64,000 nucleotides of DNA from the NCBI GenBank assembly GCA_002842035.1, contig PHBP01000012.1:1-64000 (forward strand), in the 5' to 3' direction. A model generated the notes under the pieces. It searched no databases and was not told where the DNA came from. It saw only the letters and a program-made list of their open reading frames with translations. Position numbers and translations under genes: made by a program. How positions within the stretch are numbered: position 1 is the first letter of the stretch; each line of letters begins with the position of its first letter. The stretch comes from Candidatus Cloacimonetes bacterium HGW-Cloacimonetes-2 (GTDB taxonomy: Bacteria > Cloacimonadota > Cloacimonadia > Cloacimonadales > Cloacimonadaceae). This document shows, piece after piece, positions 9,462 through 17,632 of this stretch.

Positions 9462-12400
9462 CTACTGGTCAAGCGCTCTGATCTGCTCACGGGTGATTTC
9501 TATGTAATAGCTAGCGTCGCAACGGGTAAAGAGATCGAGTGCTTGCTCCAGCTTGTTCCTGGCATCTGCTTTCAGGGATGTTTCCAGATCGATCATAGCG
9601 AGGTTGAACCAAGCTCTGCCGCTACCATCCAGATCGCCTACTTCTGCCAGAATTTCCAGTTGCTTATTGTAGTACTCGCGGGATAAATCCCAGTCTTTGT
9701 CCATCTTGGCGATATTGCCCAGATTTCCAAAGGTGTGCGCGATGCCTTCACGATCGTTTATCCTCTGCTGCAATAGCAGATTGGATTCGTAAGTTGCTTT
9801 TGCTTCAGCGTATTGACCACGTTTGAAGTAGTTATCGCCGATGGCATCGTAACAAAAAGACTTTCCGCTCTCATCGTGGATACGCTCCGCGATCTCAAGG
9901 GATTGACGGAAGCAAGCGAGCGCTGCATCGTGTTGATCCAGGTAGGAATGCAGCTCTCCGATATCGTAGATGATGATGGATTCCTGCATCAGATTTCCGA
10001 TATGCCGCGCTACGATCAGGCTCTTTTCATAAGCTTTTTGGGCAGATTCATAGTCGCCGAGATTGCGGTGGAAGGTGCCGATATTGAGCAGGGCTTTGGA
10101 ATAGCCATTGCGGTCGCCACTGCGTTCAGCAATTTCCAGGGCCTCTTGATAGAGCTTGAGTGCATCGTCCTTTTTGCCCCTCCGGAAAAGAGCATTGCCC
10201 ATACCGGAGGCTGCGATGCGTTTGCCGATGGGATCGTGTAGTTTTGCCGCCAAAGCGGACTTTATTCTATAGTATTTATAGCCACTGAGATAGTCGCCCT
10301 GGTTGATGAAGGATTGAGCGATCACACCGCTGAGGCGGTTCTGTTCGTTTGGTTGATCCTTGAGCTCGTCAAAGAGCGGGAGGGCGCGTGACTGGAACTC
10401 CTCAGTTTTACCTTGTGCCGCAAGCATTTCCAGGTATTGCAGTTCCATCTGGATCTTTAGAGCTGGATCTCCGATCTGCAGGACTTTGGACGAGGCAAAA
10501 TCTGCCAGCTCGGGGAAGCGGGAGCTATTGCTGTAGTACATTGCCCACAGTGCGTAGTAACGATCCCGAAGGGCTCCGGGTTGTGCCTCAAGTTCCCTCA
10601 GGGCTTCGAGTTCGACCGCGGCATTGTCATTCTCTGCCAGGCTCAGCATTATTTCTGCTATGTATAGCTTTGCGGAGATCAGCTCTGCCGCCTCGGCTGT
10701 ATGTTGAGTCAGCATCTGCCAATAGAGCTTGCTAAGTTCCAGGGCTCCAATGCTATAGTAATGCTTTGCGAGGAAGAGGCTCCATTTACGGATCAGCCTA
10801 TGATCTCCGGTGCGGATATAATGCGCAGCCGCAAGTTCTGTAGCCTTGGGATCATCTGAGTGAGTCTCGTAGAAAGCAGCCAAGCTCTTGTGATAAATAA
10901 TCTTATCCGCGAGCAGGATGCTATTGTAAATACTATCTTTGAGGAGTGGATTACTAAAGTCATAGACAGCCTCGGGTCGCAAATCCACCTGTTCCAGAAT
11001 ACCATTTAAAGCAAGCTCTTCCATCAGCTTATCAGCATTCTTCATACCGAAAGCCTCGTGTAGATCGGAAGCTGTAAAGGGCACGGCATAGATGGCAGCC
11101 AGCGAGAGAACCTTTTGCAGGGGAGCAGCTTGAGCATTGTAAGTAGTGATCAGCAGGTTTTCCAGGCGATCCGGGATCAATCCGCGAGCCTTGAGCGAGT
11201 GAATCTCATTGGGCGTAATCAGATCAGTGGCAGCAGGATAGACGGCTTGGATCTGCTTGAGGATTTCTGTCAGAAATCGGGCATTGCCTTCGCTGAGAGA
11301 GTGGAGCTCTTCTTTAACTGCGTTGGTTGCGAGCGGAAGATAAGCGCTTACCAGCCACCCAGCTTCCTCGGGCAGTAGTTTGGAGAGAGTAATGCAGGAG
11401 CTATTGATGTAATCATCGCTCTGCCAGACAAAGTCCTGTTCGCAGGTAACAATCACCTTGGCAGATGAGCCTAAGTTTCTTTTGATCAGCATCTTGATCA
11501 GCTCGAGGGACTGTGGGTCGTAACCATCGATGGGATCTATGGCAAGGCAGACATCCGGCGGATAAATTGCTGCGAGGATATCAAAGAAAGTGTTACGAGC
11601 CAGCTCGTATTCTGCACGCGCTCTGGCAGGAGAGAGCTTTTCCGGGCTTAGCAGGTGAAGCTTTATCAGCTCCGGATCGTAGAAGATCTGCTTTTCATCC
11701 ATCCAGGTGCAGAATTCCTCAAATTGGAGGCTTAGTTTGTCGATGCCAAGTTTACGCCGGATAGAGTGGTAAAAGAAATCCAGCCTCAGGCTGCGGGTGT
11801 AGGGATCGGAATGGAAGATCTCAAAGCTGTGTCCGCTCTTTTCAAGTTGTTTGCACAAGAGCCAGGCGAGGTAGCTTTTGCCGCTGCCGGAAGAGCCTTT
11901 GATGGTGATCAGGGCCTCGGAGGAGGATTTGATTTGCTCCAATGCGGGTTCCAGAAGGCTTTCCCTCAGGCAGAGCGGACGGCTCTCAAAGCGCTGTTCA
12001 TATTGTTTCCACTGCTCTGGTAATTCCTTTACCAGCTTGTATATGGCTATTTTGTCGCGGATGCCTTTGACCTCTGTTGTGGAAAGGAAAAGCGTCTCAA
12101 ACTTTAGTTTGATACGGCTCTCGATCTCACCGGACATACAGATCTGTCGGCTCTTGGCATAGCTCATCAGGCGTGCAGCGATATTGACGGCATTGCCTAT
12201 GATACCATATTCCCAGCGCTTGTTAGCGCCAATTTGACCGGTGTATATATTGTTGTAATTGATTCCGATGCGAAGCTCAACCCCGGGAGCACGTATCTGC
12301 GTGATGCGGGTGGCGCAGATGAAGGCACGCTCGATGTCATCCGGATGTAGTATTGGCGCACCAAAGACCGGCAAGATCAGATAGCCTTTTTCTGTGTAGT

Positions 12401-13190
12401 CAATCTTGTTGATCACTCCGCCGTATCGATCGACCATTCGCTGGATCTGGCGGTAGGTGTGGTCATATTGCTCCAGCTCAAAGTAATGGGAGCTTTCGGA
12501 GATAATGCGTATGAAGATCACTGCTGCATTGCGCAGTGAGGCGGAAGGGGGAGCAGTCCCCGGAGATTGCCGTAATACTTCCGGCAAAAAGCTCCGGGCA
12601 GGGATCAGGTAGCGCTTGCGGAGAGCTGTCTCGGCAGGGATTTGATAGTCTATATCGGGAAGCTCCCGGGTGATTCCGCTGCCCATATCGGCCAGTTCGT
12701 AAGCCCGGCTAATGGTTTTGCCATCCACATAGTAATCCAGGTGATAACGCGTATCGCCCACGATGTTCAGATTAACCGGACCCCAACACAGGCTGCCGTG
12801 CAGACTGAAGCTGATGTCGTAACTTTCCCGGAAGATGCCATCCAGTTCCTCTGCCCGGGCTTCTATTTGGTTGCAGGCGAGCTCGAGGATTGCTTTGTCA
12901 TTGGGTGTGATATGTGGAAAGAGGATCAGGCAGGAATCACCGCCAAATTTGAAGATCTCTCCGCCCAAAGGCTCGATGATCTGTTCTACTTCGCGGTAAT
13001 GGCGGTTGATGATCTGAGTAACCAGTTCCACGCCATATCTGCCTTTTCGGCTGGCTGCTTCGGTAATCTTGGTAAAACCCTTGATATCAAGGAAGATTAC
13101 GCCTGCAAAGAGCTCCCTCCGATAGGGGAGAGAGCTCTTTGAGAGGCTTTGGCAAAGCTCACGGACAGTGCGGGGGATATGTGCTGTTAT
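9462..13190 (-). CDS. soluble-adenylyl-cyclase-like protein: two cyclase domains, STAND/AAA NTPase, TPR repeats
   Basis: 1242 aa if it starts at 13190. The first cyclase domain (about residues 28-150) has both metal-binding aspartates, D35 in FLDIKGFT and D85 in FGGDS. The second (about 185-365) keeps GINYNNIYTGQIG and the GNAVNIAARL segment but has Arg where the first Asp should be (VIFIRIISES), so the pair resembles the catalytic/degenerate C1-C2 pair of ADCY10-type cyclases. A P-loop (GSSGSGKS, about 432) and Walker B (CLAIDPIDG) follow, then about 12 TPR units (about 750-1240). Start: the nearest standard start is a GTG at 13031, which would cut off D35. The frame is open further upstream with no ATG, GTG or TTG. 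ATA at 13190, nine bases after AAGGAG and overlapping the preceding TAA, is the best candidate. Predicted role: cAMP synthesis or signal-gated regulation in the cytoplasm. Confidence 0.85.
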   Translation of the reverse strand: MTAHIPRTVRELCQSLSKSSLPYRRELFAGVIFLDIKGFTKITEAASRKGRYGVELVTQIINRHYREVEQIIEPLGGEIFKFGGDSCLILFPHITPNDKAILELACNQIEARAEELDGIFRESYDISFSLHGSLCWGPVNLNIVGDTRYHLDYYVDGKTISRAYELADMGSGITRELPDIDYQIPAETALRKRYLIPARSFLPEVLRQSPGTAPPSASLRNAAVIFIRIISESSHYFELEQYDHTYRQIQRMVDRYGGVINKIDYTEKGYLILPVFGAPILHPDDIERAFICATRITQIRAPGVELRIGINYNNIYTGQIGANKRWEYGIIGNAVNIAARLMSYAKSRQICMSGEIESRIKLKFETLFLSTTEVKGIRDKIAIYKLVKELPEQWKQYEQRFESRPLCLRESLLEPALEQIKSSSEALITIKGSSGSGKSYLAWLLCKQLEKSGHSFEIFHSDPYTRSLRLDFFYHSIRRKLGIDKLSLQFEEFCTWMDEKQIFYDPELIKLHLLSPEKLSPARARAEYELARNTFFDILAAIYPPDVCLAIDPIDGYDPQSLELIKMLIKRNLGSSAKVIVTCEQDFVWQSDDYINSSCITLSKLLPEEAGWLVSAYLPLATNAVKEELHSLSEGNARFLTEILKQIQAVYPAATDLITPNEIHSLKARGLIPDRLENLLITTYNAQAAPLQKVLSLAAIYAVPFTASDLHEAFGMKNADKLMEELALNGILEQVDLRPEAVYDFSNPLLKDSIYNSILLADKIIYHKSLAAFYETHSDDPKATELAAAHYIRTGDHRLIRKWSLFLAKHYYSIGALELSKLYWQMLTQHTAEAAELISAKLYIAEIMLSLAENDNAAVELEALRELEAQPGALRDRYYALWAMYYSNSSRFPELADFASSKVLQIGDPALKIQMELQYLEMLAAQGKTEEFQSRALPLFDELKDQPNEQNRLSGVIAQSFINQGDYLSGYKYYRIKSALAAKLHDPIGKRIAASGMGNALFRRGKKDDALKLYQEALEIAERSGDRNGYSKALLNIGTFHRNLGDYESAQKAYEKSLIVARHIGNLMQESIIIYDIGELHSYLDQHDAALACFRQSLEIAERIHDESGKSFCYDAIGDNYFKRGQYAEAKATYESNLLLQQRINDREGIAHTFGNLGNIAKMDKDWDLSREYYNKQLEILAEVGDLDGSGRAWFNLAMIDLETSLKADARNKLEQALDLFTRCDASYYIEITREQIRALDQ

Positions 13191-16100
13191 TGCTCTGATC
13201 TCCTTATCCGGGGTGCAGGACGTCCATCACCGCCAATTCTGGAGTGGCTGTTGATATACTGCTCCAGCTCAGAACGGGTTCCGGCATAACCTAGGACTAT
13301 GTAGAATCCCTTGTCTGCAAGTGCACCACCCTGGTGTATGAATTGAGTGAGTGGTGCTTCGGTAAGACCAAGGTAATTGAAGTAGCCATTGGGATCGTCA
13401 CTGCCGTAAACTATGTAGTAGTTCACGAAGATCGGCTCACCATTGACTGTCTGATTCACAGGATTCCAGTTGATAATGATATTGCTTAGTCCCTGGATTA
13501 GCGATTGGATCACCGGAGCTTGCAGCAATTGATCTTGCACTACGATAGCTGCCTGATAGATCACTTCATCGATCAGGCTGCCTGTCTGCATCTTGAGACG
13601 CAGGCTGTAGATGCCGGGCTGGTCGAATGTATGGGTCCAGTCTCTGCTTGTGGCTTCTATTACCTGGTCGTTGTTCAGATCCCAGTTTACCACCGTAAGC
13701 TGGAGATTATCGTGTCCCCAGGATTCATTACTGAAGTGTACCGTAGTGCCGGTAGTGACAAAGCGGTAGTCACTGCTCATTGCAGCTCTGTGCAGGTATG
13801 AATAAGCTCCAATATCAGCTCGGGAGCCATCTTCGTCATTGAGCAGAGCTGGATCACCCATATCTATACAGGGGCTCTGTGAGGTGAGCAGGAAGTTATC
13901 CTGAGCCGTATCCAGGAAGGCGGGGTACTGATTGATATTACCTATTCCGGGATAGTTCATACCCGGTGAGAAGATATCGCAGTAGCTTGTTTCTATGGTG
14001 CTGCTAAAGCTAACAAAGGGTTGCTGGATAGGAGCCATAGCCCAGCCTATATTGGAATTGAAGCGGACATCAGAATTGAAAGCTACCAGCAGGGTCGGGT
14101 AGTTGTAGATCGTATTGTTCTGGATCCTGGCAAAGCTGGAATTGAGTATATCAAAAGCTCTGAAAGGCCATAGCGGGAATTGCTGGAATATATCCGGATC
14201 AAGGCTAAAGACTTGCTTTCGGATGATAGTCTGAGGATTCAGACCATTTGCCCGGATGCCTGTCCCACAGTTCTTGATGAAGTTGCGTCCCAGCTTGGTT
14301 TGGTTTCCGGTTGCTATCACTATCCCTGTAAAAGCTCCTCTGATATCACAATTCTCCAGAGTCCCGGCTACTCCGCTGCCAAGGTAGATACCAACGTTTT
14401 CCACCCTTTGTGTCTCGCTGGAATTGCGCACGCGGATATTGGTAAGTGTCGGGGTAGCAGTCTCTCTGGAGGTATTCTGAATATAGATAGACGTGGTGCA
14501 TCCTCCTATAGAGTCGTTGTCCACCAGCACTCTACCCAGATTTAAGAGCTTGAGACCTACTCTCTCGCTACGTTGTGTCTCGCTGGAGTTTCGGACCCGG
14601 ATATTGGTAAGAGTAGGTGTGGCAGTAGTTCGTGAATCGAGCCCGCTCTTGTCATAGAGCAGCGCCACACTGCAATTCTCCGTGATCACATCATCCACAT
14701 TGGCGATCACTTGCCCAGAGAAGACCAGTCCATAATCGTCTGTGCGTTGTGTCTCGCTGGAGTTTCTTACTCTGATATTGGTGAGTGTAGGAGTGGATTC
14801 TGCACGGATACCGCTGCTTTCGATCCTGATACCAGTACCCAGATCAACAGTCTCGATCTCAGAGAGAATGATTGCAGGGATGTCTGTGATCAATAGTCCG
14901 GTCGAGGCTGTTCTCTGCGTCTCGCTGGAGTTTCTTACTCTGATATTGGTAAGCGTAGGAGTATCCCGCAAGTTTACCGGAGCAGCAGCACCGCTGTAAT
15001 CAATACCGACCGTCATCCAATCGATCTCAATATCCTCCAATTCCGGCTGTACCGCTCCCCGGATCAGGATGCCGGTGGTGTTTATGCGTTGTGTTTCGCT
15101 GGAGTTTCTTACTCTGATATTGGTAAGTGTCGGCGTAGCAGTCTCACGGTCGTAGTTTTCTATCTTGATGGCAGTACCAAAGTTTTCAATCTCGGCATCT
15201 TCGATCACAGGATTGCCTCCCCCCATCACTACAATTCCTGTATAATCAGCCAGATCCCGCTGAGTCTCATTGGAATTGCGCACCCTGATATTGGTAAGGG
15301 TAGGACTGTTACGGTTTGGTCCTCCATTAATCCTGATACCTGTACGATAGTTGAAGATTCTGATATTATTCAGCTGTGAGGAGCTGTTTCCGATCTGTAA
15401 ACCCTCACCATCTACAATGCTGGTCGTATCGCTGGTAGAGATCTCCAGGCCGGTGAGTTGTGGCGAAGACCCATCTATGACCAGCGGATTCTCGGCATCC
15501 AGAATATTGCAATTGAACAGATTAGCCCCACCTGAGCCGGGCCCAAAGATCATTCCACCCCAGAATCCGCCGCCTTGCGGAGGCCTAAAGCTGGCGCCTG
15601 TTGCTTGTAGTGTTCCCAACACCGGGATAGGTTCTGGAGCCAGGAAGATCACTTCCACTCCCGGATTCACGATCACCGGCTGATCCACAGGGAAGTTCAG
15701 ACCTCCCATAATATTATAAGGTGACTGCTCGATTACCATCACAGGAGGCAGCACAGTAGTCGTATCAATTGCTGTACCGGTCATCGTAAACATATCCTGG
15801 ATCAGGGCAGTGGCTGATTCCCCAGATTCATAGTTGCCCAGCGTAAGTCTTACGCTGTATGTTCCGGAGTTGTAAAACACATGGCTGGGATTCTGTAGAT
15901 CGCTATCTGTAAGCCCGTCATTCTCAAAGTCCCAGTGCCACCAATCCGGATTACCCAGGGTATGATCAAAGAACGGCACCGTCTGACCGCAGAGATAGTA
16001 GTTTCCGTTATCAGTGCTAAAACTCACGGTAAAGTGCTCCAGCACCGTAATGGTAAAAGTACCGGTTGCCACGGCTCTGCCAACGTGATCACTGAAGGTG

Positions 16101-17632
16101 ATGTTAATTGTTGCTGAGCCAAACAGATCTGGTGTATAGTGGTATGTAGCAGTCAGATGCCCTGGCCAGCCGGGATTGTAATCCACAATCAGATCATAAT
16201 TAATTGGCGCAACCTGCACCATATTCATACTCAACTCGCTATCCGGATTATCCGGATCTTCCACATACTGGCTAAAGTCTATGGTATAGTGCGAATTGCG
16301 AATAAAGTAGAAATTGGCAGGGAGATTGAGGATGGGAGCATCATTCACAGGCAAAACCGTTACGGCATAGGTCTTGCTGACCATCGAGCCAAAGGGATCC
16401 ATCGCTGTGATTGAAATATTCTCCGTGCCGTACCAATTAGGAGCCGGCGAGAGCACACAAGTCCACGGAAGGACTATCTGAGCGCTGATATGCTGGCTGT
16501 TTTCCGCCAAATAAGTAAGAGTGTCATTGTCCGGATCGCTAAAGACATAGCGCAACATCAGGCTGTAATTGTTATCCTCATTAAAGCTGAGTGTAGTTGC
16601 CGGATCTATCACCACCGGTGCATCATTGGTTACAGTAATATAATCGTATTTGGTGAGCTTATTGGAATTGCCCGTATTGGTCAGCACGGTAAGCGATACG
16701 CTATATTCGCCGGGGGTATTGTATGTGAAAAGTGGATTCTGGAGCATACTATCGGTAAATCCATCTCCATTCATATCCCAAGACCACTGGCTTACATAGC
16801 TCAGCGTATCGCCCGGGGCAAAACGAGTCTGATCTGTGAACTGGATCTCATCTCCGGAGTGTACTGTCGTAGAACTTGCAGTAAAGAAAGCCCTTACTGG
16901 GATGTAAGTAACCACCAGATCGACATTCCAATACAAATCTGCCACGCCAATCTGATTAGTGCTGATTCTCACGTCACAGCCATAGCTTCCCGGAAGCAAG
17001 TCCTGAGTACTCAAATGCATCGGGATAATCATAGAATCACCAACTGCAAGGGTTTGCATTCCAACGCTTTTGCCTCCGATCAAATCCGACCAGCCAAACC
17101 ATATCCAATCCGGTAATTCACTATCGATGATATCGAAAGTAAGCTCCGCATCTCCCCGGTTGCTAAAGCTGATGCCTTCCTCATAGTAATCCAGCTCCGG
17201 CATACTGTGCCAATATATATCCGGATTGACGCCAAGGACAGGTCCTGTGGGTGGAGCTTCACAGATTCCATTCAGAGGGATGTAGTGGTAATTGTAATTG
17301 AAATCCATTACAGTCAGGGTGCCATCATAGTTCCCCGGGCCGGGAGGAGAAAAGATTACATCAAAGGTTACGGGCGTATCATAGACCGCAAAGGGCTCGG
17401 GAGGATCAGCATAATAGGAAAATGCCGAGCCGGACACCCAAATATTCATAACGCCGTTCGTATAGGTAAATGGATCTGTATTTGTAACGACTACAGGGAT
17501 TTGAGTGTTGATACCTGTGGCAACAGTGCCAAAATTTATTGGGTTGGGGCTTATAACAAGACTTTGACTCCACAAATAGAACGGAATGACCACCATCAAA
17601 GCTATAAAGAAAAAGGATATTCTGTGAGACAT
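13187..17632 (-). CDS. giant exported PKD / right-handed beta-helix protein
   Basis: 1481 aa from the ATG at 17632, preceded by GGAGGT and giving the signal peptide MSHRISFFFIALMVVIPFYL. Order: two ASH-like sandwiches (LVISPNPINFGTVATG; VLGVNPDIYW), a PKD domain (WSWDMNGDGFTDSMLQNP), cadherin-like repeats (FSDPDNDTLTYLAENS), a second PKD (WHWDFENDGLTDSDLQNP), a right-handed parallel beta-helix of about 500 residues with six copies of LTNIRVRNSSETQR, a third PKD (WDLNNDQVIEATSRDW) and an FN3-like end. There is no C-terminal sorting tail. Its stop overlaps the apparent start of the cyclase gene, so a large surface protein and a cytoplasmic signalling protein seem to be translationally coupled. 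Adhesion or polysaccharide binding is inferred from fold. Confidence 0.85.
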   Translation of the reverse strand: MSHRISFFFIALMVVIPFYLWSQSLVISPNPINFGTVATGINTQIPVVVTNTDPFTYTNGVMNIWVSGSAFSYYADPPEPFAVYDTPVTFDVIFSPPGPGNYDGTLTVMDFNYNYHYIPLNGICEAPPTGPVLGVNPDIYWHSMPELDYYEEGISFSNRGDAELTFDIIDSELPDWIWFGWSDLIGGKSVGMQTLAVGDSMIIPMHLSTQDLLPGSYGCDVRISTNQIGVADLYWNVDLVVTYIPVRAFFTASSTTVHSGDEIQFTDQTRFAPGDTLSYVSQWSWDMNGDGFTDSMLQNPLFTYNTPGEYSVSLTVLTNTGNSNKLTKYDYITVTNDAPVVIDPATTLSFNEDNNYSLMLRYVFSDPDNDTLTYLAENSQHISAQIVLPWTCVLSPAPNWYGTENISITAMDPFGSMVSKTYAVTVLPVNDAPILNLPANFYFIRNSHYTIDFSQYVEDPDNPDSELSMNMVQVAPINYDLIVDYNPGWPGHLTATYHYTPDLFGSATINITFSDHVGRAVATGTFTITVLEHFTVSFSTDNGNYYLCGQTVPFFDHTLGNPDWWHWDFENDGLTDSDLQNPSHVFYNSGTYSVRLTLGNYESGESATALIQDMFTMTGTAIDTTTVLPPVMVIEQSPYNIMGGLNFPVDQPVIVNPGVEVIFLAPEPIPVLGTLQATGASFRPPQGGGFWGGMIFGPGSGGANLFNCNILDAENPLVIDGSSPQLTGLEISTSDTTSIVDGEGLQIGNSSSQLNNIRIFNYRTGIRINGGPNRNSPTLTNIRVRNSNETQRDLADYTGIVVMGGGNPVIEDAEIENFGTAIKIENYDRETATPTLTNIRVRNSSETQRINTTGILIRGAVQPELEDIEIDWMTVGIDYSGAAAPVNLRDTPTLTNIRVRNSSETQRTASTGLLITDIPAIILSEIETVDLGTGIRIESSGIRAESTPTLTNIRVRNSSETQRTDDYGLVFSGQVIANVDDVITENCSVALLYDKSGLDSRTTATPTLTNIRVRNSSETQRSERVGLKLLNLGRVLVDNDSIGGCTTSIYIQNTSRETATPTLTNIRVRNSSETQRVENVGIYLGSGVAGTLENCDIRGAFTGIVIATGNQTKLGRNFIKNCGTGIRANGLNPQTIIRKQVFSLDPDIFQQFPLWPFRAFDILNSSFARIQNNTIYNYPTLLVAFNSDVRFNSNIGWAMAPIQQPFVSFSSTIETSYCDIFSPGMNYPGIGNINQYPAFLDTAQDNFLLTSQSPCIDMGDPALLNDEDGSRADIGAYSYLHRAAMSSDYRFVTTGTTVHFSNESWGHDNLQLTVVNWDLNNDQVIEATSRDWTHTFDQPGIYSLRLKMQTGSLIDEVIYQAAIVVQDQLLQAPVIQSLIQGLSNIIINWNPVNQTVNGEPIFVNYYIVYGSDDPNGYFNYLGLTEAPLTQFIHQGGALADKGFYIVLGYAGTRSELEQYINSHSRIGGDGRPAPRIRRSEQ
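14399..15312 (-). repeat. six in-gene beta-helix repeats with near-identical core
   Basis: Within the giant surface-protein gene, the segment encoding LTNIRVRNS(S/N)ETQR recurs six times at intervals of 167-176 bp (beginning near 14399, 14570, 14744, 14911, 15087 and 15259). The 14-residue core is almost invariant while the roughly 43 residues between cores are unrelated. Codon use varies between copies, so conservation is at protein level more than DNA level. Confidence 0.9.

Follow-up and report, generated by a model that had tools for sequence, protein, structure and literature searches.

A cyclase gene of Candidatus Cloacimonetes bacterium HGW-Cloacimonetes-2 very probably starts at an AUA codon that is fused with the stop codon of the preceding gene as AUAA, and the same codon occupies this position in 11 of the 12 orthologs with a complete start. 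Judging from the sequence of the locus and of its relatives, we consider it likely that the cyclase is made from this AUA by reinitiation, assisted by a Shine-Dalgarno (SD) motif, after termination at the upstream stop, and that the weak codon is itself under selection.

The cyclase reading frame and its start region

The window analysed here is the whole stretch of 64,000 nucleotides (contig PHBP01000012.1, positions 1 to 64,000), in which the features of the locus are as follows.

9462..13190, minus strand: cyclase gene, 1242 amino acids from the AUA, with tandem class III cyclase domains, an AAA_16 ATPase and TPR repeats
13188..13190, minus strand: AUA codon, the very probable cyclase start, assigned from a frame without a canonical start and from the ortholog and outgroup alignments
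13200..13205, minus strand: Shine-Dalgarno motif AAGGAG, embedded in upstream coding sequence and separated from the AUA by 9 nt
13187..13189, minus strand: UAA that terminates the upstream gene and shares two bases with the AUA (AUAA)
13029..13031, minus strand: first canonical start codon, a GTG (codon 54), past the metal-ligand Asp35
13187..17632, minus strand: upstream secreted-protein gene, with PKD, Ig-like and pectate-lyase-like repeats (Pfam) and a likely ATG at 17632 behind GAGGAGG

The cyclase frame opens after an in-frame TGA (13229-13227), from which 12 codons lead to the ATA (13190-13188). A preliminary description of this DNA had reported that ATG, GTG and TTG are all absent from the frame between 13190 and the GTG at 13031, that AAGGAG lies nine bases before the ATA, and that the ATA overlaps the preceding stop as ATAA. 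Reading of the minus strand bears out all three statements, and every coordinate given there for the start region holds: the spacer between AAGGAG (13205-13200) and the ATA is exactly 9 nt (ATCAGAGCA), and the upstream TAA occupies 13189-13187. The region upstream of the GTG, which had been taken for real coding sequence, indeed carries the metal motif IFLDIKGFT, which aligns with human soluble adenylyl cyclase; the lead-in that had been noted before this motif is present, but it reads 'HIPRTVREL' rather than 'VPR'. In the source genome (G000), a usable ATG, GTG or TTG is absent 5' of the conserved cyclase protein sequence. No consistent RNA fold was seen at the cyclase start.

The encoded protein has Pfam matches to Guanylate_cyc, AAA_16 and TPR repeats (AAA_16 and TPR_12 over the cut-off), which include a C-terminal NTPase and TPR region. 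Residues 1-397 are matched over both cyclase domains by structures of human soluble adenylyl cyclase, 4CM2 and 4CLF among them (E about 1 × 10−19); the C1 match begins at residue 26, and the paired motifs are IFLDIKGFT and KFGGDS in the cyclase vs. FVDISGFT and KFAGDA in the human enzyme. Both cyclase domains are present, together with both C1 metal-ligand aspartates (Asp35 and Asp85), which align with the FVDISGFT and KFAGDA motifs of the human enzyme; the role of Asp35 as a metal ligand is established for class III cyclases. If the GTG at 13031 were the start, Asp35 would be lost. By these features, the product classifies as a soluble-adenylyl-cyclase-like class III cyclase and may produce cAMP. 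In soluble adenylyl cyclase (sAC), an NTPase and TPR region follows the cyclase domains.

Conservation of the start codon and of the overlap

A search among relatives and in the family and order identified 12 orthologs with a complete start, which represent six genera of the same family (g1, g2, g3, g4, g9 and g10) and come almost entirely from draft, metagenome-type assemblies. One more ortholog (L010, G027:C278) is truncated at a contig edge, so that its start is missing; one TAG was reported inside the frame, as in a broken gene or an assembly fault. A scan of a contig collection returned only the G002 contig (Candidatus Cloacimonadota MAG). ATA is found at the start position in 11 of the 12 complete orthologs (G000, G002, G010, G013, G005, G023, G018, G031, G073, G069 and G036) and ATC in the remaining one (G003), and in none of the 12 does an ATG, GTG or TTG separate this codon from the in-frame stop before it. 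SD-like motifs (AAGGAG, AAGGA, GAGGAG or GGGAG; weak in G010) are located 6-9 nt before the start; that is, a non-canonical codon is conserved across species behind an SD (11 ATA and 1 ATC).

In 11 of 11 ATA genes, the second base of the start codon is the first base of the upstream stop, a −4 nt overlap on the same strand with conserved neighbours. The overlap always reads ATAA or ATAG, the stop is never TGA, and the NTGA sequence occurs at none of these loci. The upstream gene of G005 ends in tandem TAATAA stops. In G003, where the upstream stop lies 20 nt before the ATC, there is no overlap, and AAGGA is found 6 nt before the ATC. An in-frame TAA directly precedes the ATA in G002 and is located one codon before it in G013 and G023. 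Comparison of codons 2-35 within the close trio G013, G023 and G005 shows 9-12 differences at third positions vs. 3-6 and 1-2 at the other two codon positions, a predominance of third-position differences which indicates that this stretch behaves as coding sequence. Because G005, G013 and G023 are close relatives, the number of independent events is less than 11.

The preliminary description had left room for a wrong base in the assembly, in which case the codon would really be the ATG of an ATGA overlap, and had proposed an alignment of related genomes as the check. A single base change would yield this textbook sequence, but the same ATA appears in 11 separately assembled genomes from five genera, in ATAA or ATAG context. 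The alignment gives ATA (11) or ATC (1) and never ATG across six genera, which excludes a base error, and the probability that we assign to this explanation is practically nil. Retention of the AUA in 11 of the 12 complete relatives instead points to a selected feature. Among the Ile codons of these genes, ATA accounts for 12.1% and ATC for 73%, and the binomial probability of 11 ATA codons out of 12 by chance is about 9 × 10−10, shared ancestry being ignored.

This conservation is in part a stop-codon constraint, given that bases 2 and 3 of the AUA also belong to the upstream stop. One could therefore suppose that translation does start at the AUA, but that a requirement for UAA or UAG as the upstream stop is the sole reason for its retention, its weakness being of no use. 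Two of the three AUA bases are indeed common to the stop; however, AUG would be possible in nearby registers such as UAAUG, a register that occurs repeatedly in G000, and G003, without any overlap, still has the weak AUC, which shows that a weak codon is retained even where the overlap does not constrain it. We consider this account unlikely, although it keeps an appreciable chance of being correct. TGA ends 37% of the genes in the G000 sample, yet none of the 11 upstream genes at the ATA loci; a single A-to-G substitution would turn ATAA into ATGA with both stop and start kept, and 0 of 11 loci have ATGA.

Phylogeny and alternative start sites

In a maximum-likelihood tree of 29 sequences, rooted at the midpoint and with long internal branches in the ATA/ATC clade, the ATA/ATC genes and the cut G027 gene are separated from 16 ATG/GTG homologs with support of 100/100. 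In an N-terminal alignment with these 16 outside homologs, the ATA aligns with the outgroup ATG or GTG start or lies only a few residues away (IKNSYIP in G002 and IKAQLIP in G003, aligned with MKEALIP in G026, MNDPLIP in G030 and VHDPLIP in G071). The outgroup homologs do not overlap a long preceding gene; in G030b and G009, the preceding gene has the same C-terminal domain, and its stop is 75 and 173 nt away, respectively. Comparison of the ATA/ATC clade to the non-overlapping ATG/GTG outgroups thus indicates that the overlap accompanies the weak start in this clade.

Translation might instead begin at an internal canonical codon, with the stretch 5' of that codon left untranslated, and an in-frame TTG that could serve in the genomes concerned is indeed present between the AUA and the metal Asp in 8 of the 12 orthologs. 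The positions of these TTG codons are not conserved, however, G000 has no canonical codon before codon 54, beyond Asp35, and the N-terminal stretch shows conservation at the protein level and resembles the outgroup N-termini, all of which makes such a start very unlikely. The preliminary description had also named an in-frame ATC or ATT as a possible start. G000 has an ATC at codon 5 and another three codons before the ATA, and codons of this kind can likewise act as weak starts, as ATC seems to do in G003, but they are neither conserved in position nor SD-placed: apart from the start codon itself, no ATH codon with an SD 6-9 nt before it keeps its position across the orthologs, and in G002, G013 and G023 initiation further 5' is impossible because of the in-frame stop directly or one codon before the ATA. 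A start at such a neighbouring near-cognate codon is thus disfavoured, and we see little chance of it.

The upstream gene and the proposed mechanism

A homolog of the upstream secreted PKD/beta-helix protein (34-44% identity) is encoded directly before the cyclase in 12 of the 12 orthologous loci. In the window, the first ATG of its frame (17698) is probably not used; the ATG at 17632 comes after GAGGAGG and is followed by a signal-peptide-like sequence. Inside this gene (14404-15304), six similar 49-nt direct repeats with 76-82% identity to the reference copy and a spacing of 165-174 nt encode motifs of the TPTLTNIRVRNSSETQR type that separate variable beta-helix turns.

Since the two frames are one base apart and overlap at ATAA or ATAG in 11 of 11 ATA genes, the cyclase could in principle be made as a frameshift fusion with the upstream gene. 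We rejected this possibility, which we regard as extremely unlikely: a conserved slippery heptamer was not found by eye, and what is conserved is the SD-spaced AUA; the two products differ in apparent location, secreted for the upstream gene and cytoplasmic for the cyclase; and in G003 the upstream stop precedes the cyclase start by 20 nt.

Under the reinitiation mechanism that we propose, a ribosome finishing the secreted PKD/beta-helix protein would terminate at the UAA or UAG, would be held by the SD inside the upstream gene and slip back one base, and would reinitiate with fMet-tRNA (CAU) on the AUA, with one third-position mismatch. Because AUA is a poor codon that is discriminated against by IF3, cyclase output would be low, amounting to a small fraction of the upstream protein level, with hardly any free initiation. 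The soluble-adenylyl-cyclase-like enzyme would in this way be kept scarce and tied to its upstream neighbour, and selection would retain the AUA even though one A-to-G substitution would give standard AUGA coupling. Both coupling and attenuation at the cyclase start are inferred from the architecture of the locus. The AUA start is probably a selected feature that serves low, coupled expression of the cyclase, and a specialised weak-start coupling at this gene is plausible. Tentatively, AUAA/AUAG might represent a distinct, selected form of −4 nt coupling, in which nearly all translation of the downstream gene would come from ribosomes fresh from termination, with its output held at a constant low ratio to that of its neighbour; we rate this possibility a little short of an even chance.

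Other candidate non-canonical starts in the genome

We surveyed 812 kb of G000 in stretches (about a third of the 2.5 Mb genome), with 592 called genes, whose first-choice starts were ATG in 479 cases, TTG in 62 and GTG in 51. Only four SD-backed candidates for a non-canonical start were found in these 812 kb, the cyclase being the strongest, and genome-wide use of AUA starts was rejected on this count. In two other candidates that were checked, a birA-like gene (AUC) and an LPG-synthase-like gene (CUG), the codon is not conserved, and close relatives have ATG at or near the same place. The birA-like biotin ligase gene (L132:13842, plus strand; G000:C8:53842) has no canonical start before the conserved DSTM motif and has an ATC preceded by AGGAGGACGT. 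In the nearest relative, G001 (L161), the corresponding codon is ATG, which suggests that the ATC of G000 is a recent change in a single genome or an error. The LPG-synthase-like membrane protein gene (L158:18636, plus strand; G000:C5:73636) has a possible CTG start behind GAGGAG, in a CTGA overlap with the upstream stop. A special initiator tRNA was not found among the 44 tRNA genes of G000: in the set that ARAGORN read, CAU is the sole anticodon for Met/Ile2, and UAU is absent.

Upstream extensions that are very short escape a survey of this kind, and infC was missed. The start context of this gene is fixed (AAGGAGGTTCTTATAATCCGG) in G000 and across most loci read, with AUA or AUC as the apparent start. 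In the loci concerned (L152, about 9818-10400, minus strand; L090-L118), the context AAGGAGGTTCTT-ATA-ATC-CGG is near-invariant, and most have no ATG, GTG or TTG nearby. The infC start in this family is probably AUA or AUC, and would thus be a second conserved non-canonical start.

Comparison with known systems

Conserved non-AUG starts in bacteria are few. Gene callers limited to ATG, GTG and TTG cannot annotate the cyclase start, and a GTG call at this locus drops a catalytic residue. A family-wide weak start that is one mutation away from a strong one provides a clean natural test of selection for weak starts, and also of whether termination-reinitiation tolerates codons that free initiation rejects. 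In the literature searched, where most subscription journals were not covered, we found no description of AUAA/AUAG coupling.

Like the product described here, human ADCY10 (e.g., PDB 4CLF) has tandem C1 and C2 class III cyclase domains, which align with those of the cyclase, followed by an NTPase and TPR region; the gene studied here differs in being bacterial, of low identity and very probably AUA-initiated. With respect to the start codon, the closest parallels are the AUU and AUA starts of infC (IF3) and ccpN/cvfC1 in E. coli, S. aureus and B. subtilis, which are likewise conserved behind a good SD. In S. aureus, ccpN and infC start at AUA, and conserved non-canonical AUA and AUU starts yield about 10-30% of the AUG output in reporters (PMC13009471). 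The weak start attenuates translation in those genes, as it may at the cyclase, where, in contrast, the gene encodes a signalling enzyme in an overlapping pair, with AUA and upstream stop merged into AUAA or AUAG. The −4 nt NTGA overlap is the commonest coupled gene arrangement (PMC12548453), and coupling by reinitiation has been validated for overlapping gene pairs (PMC6728339). The cyclase locus shares with these pairs a stop whose first base is the second base of the start codon, an SD within the upstream gene and a common strand, but the known pairs combine NTG with UGA, whereas the pairs described here combine AUA with UAA or UAG.
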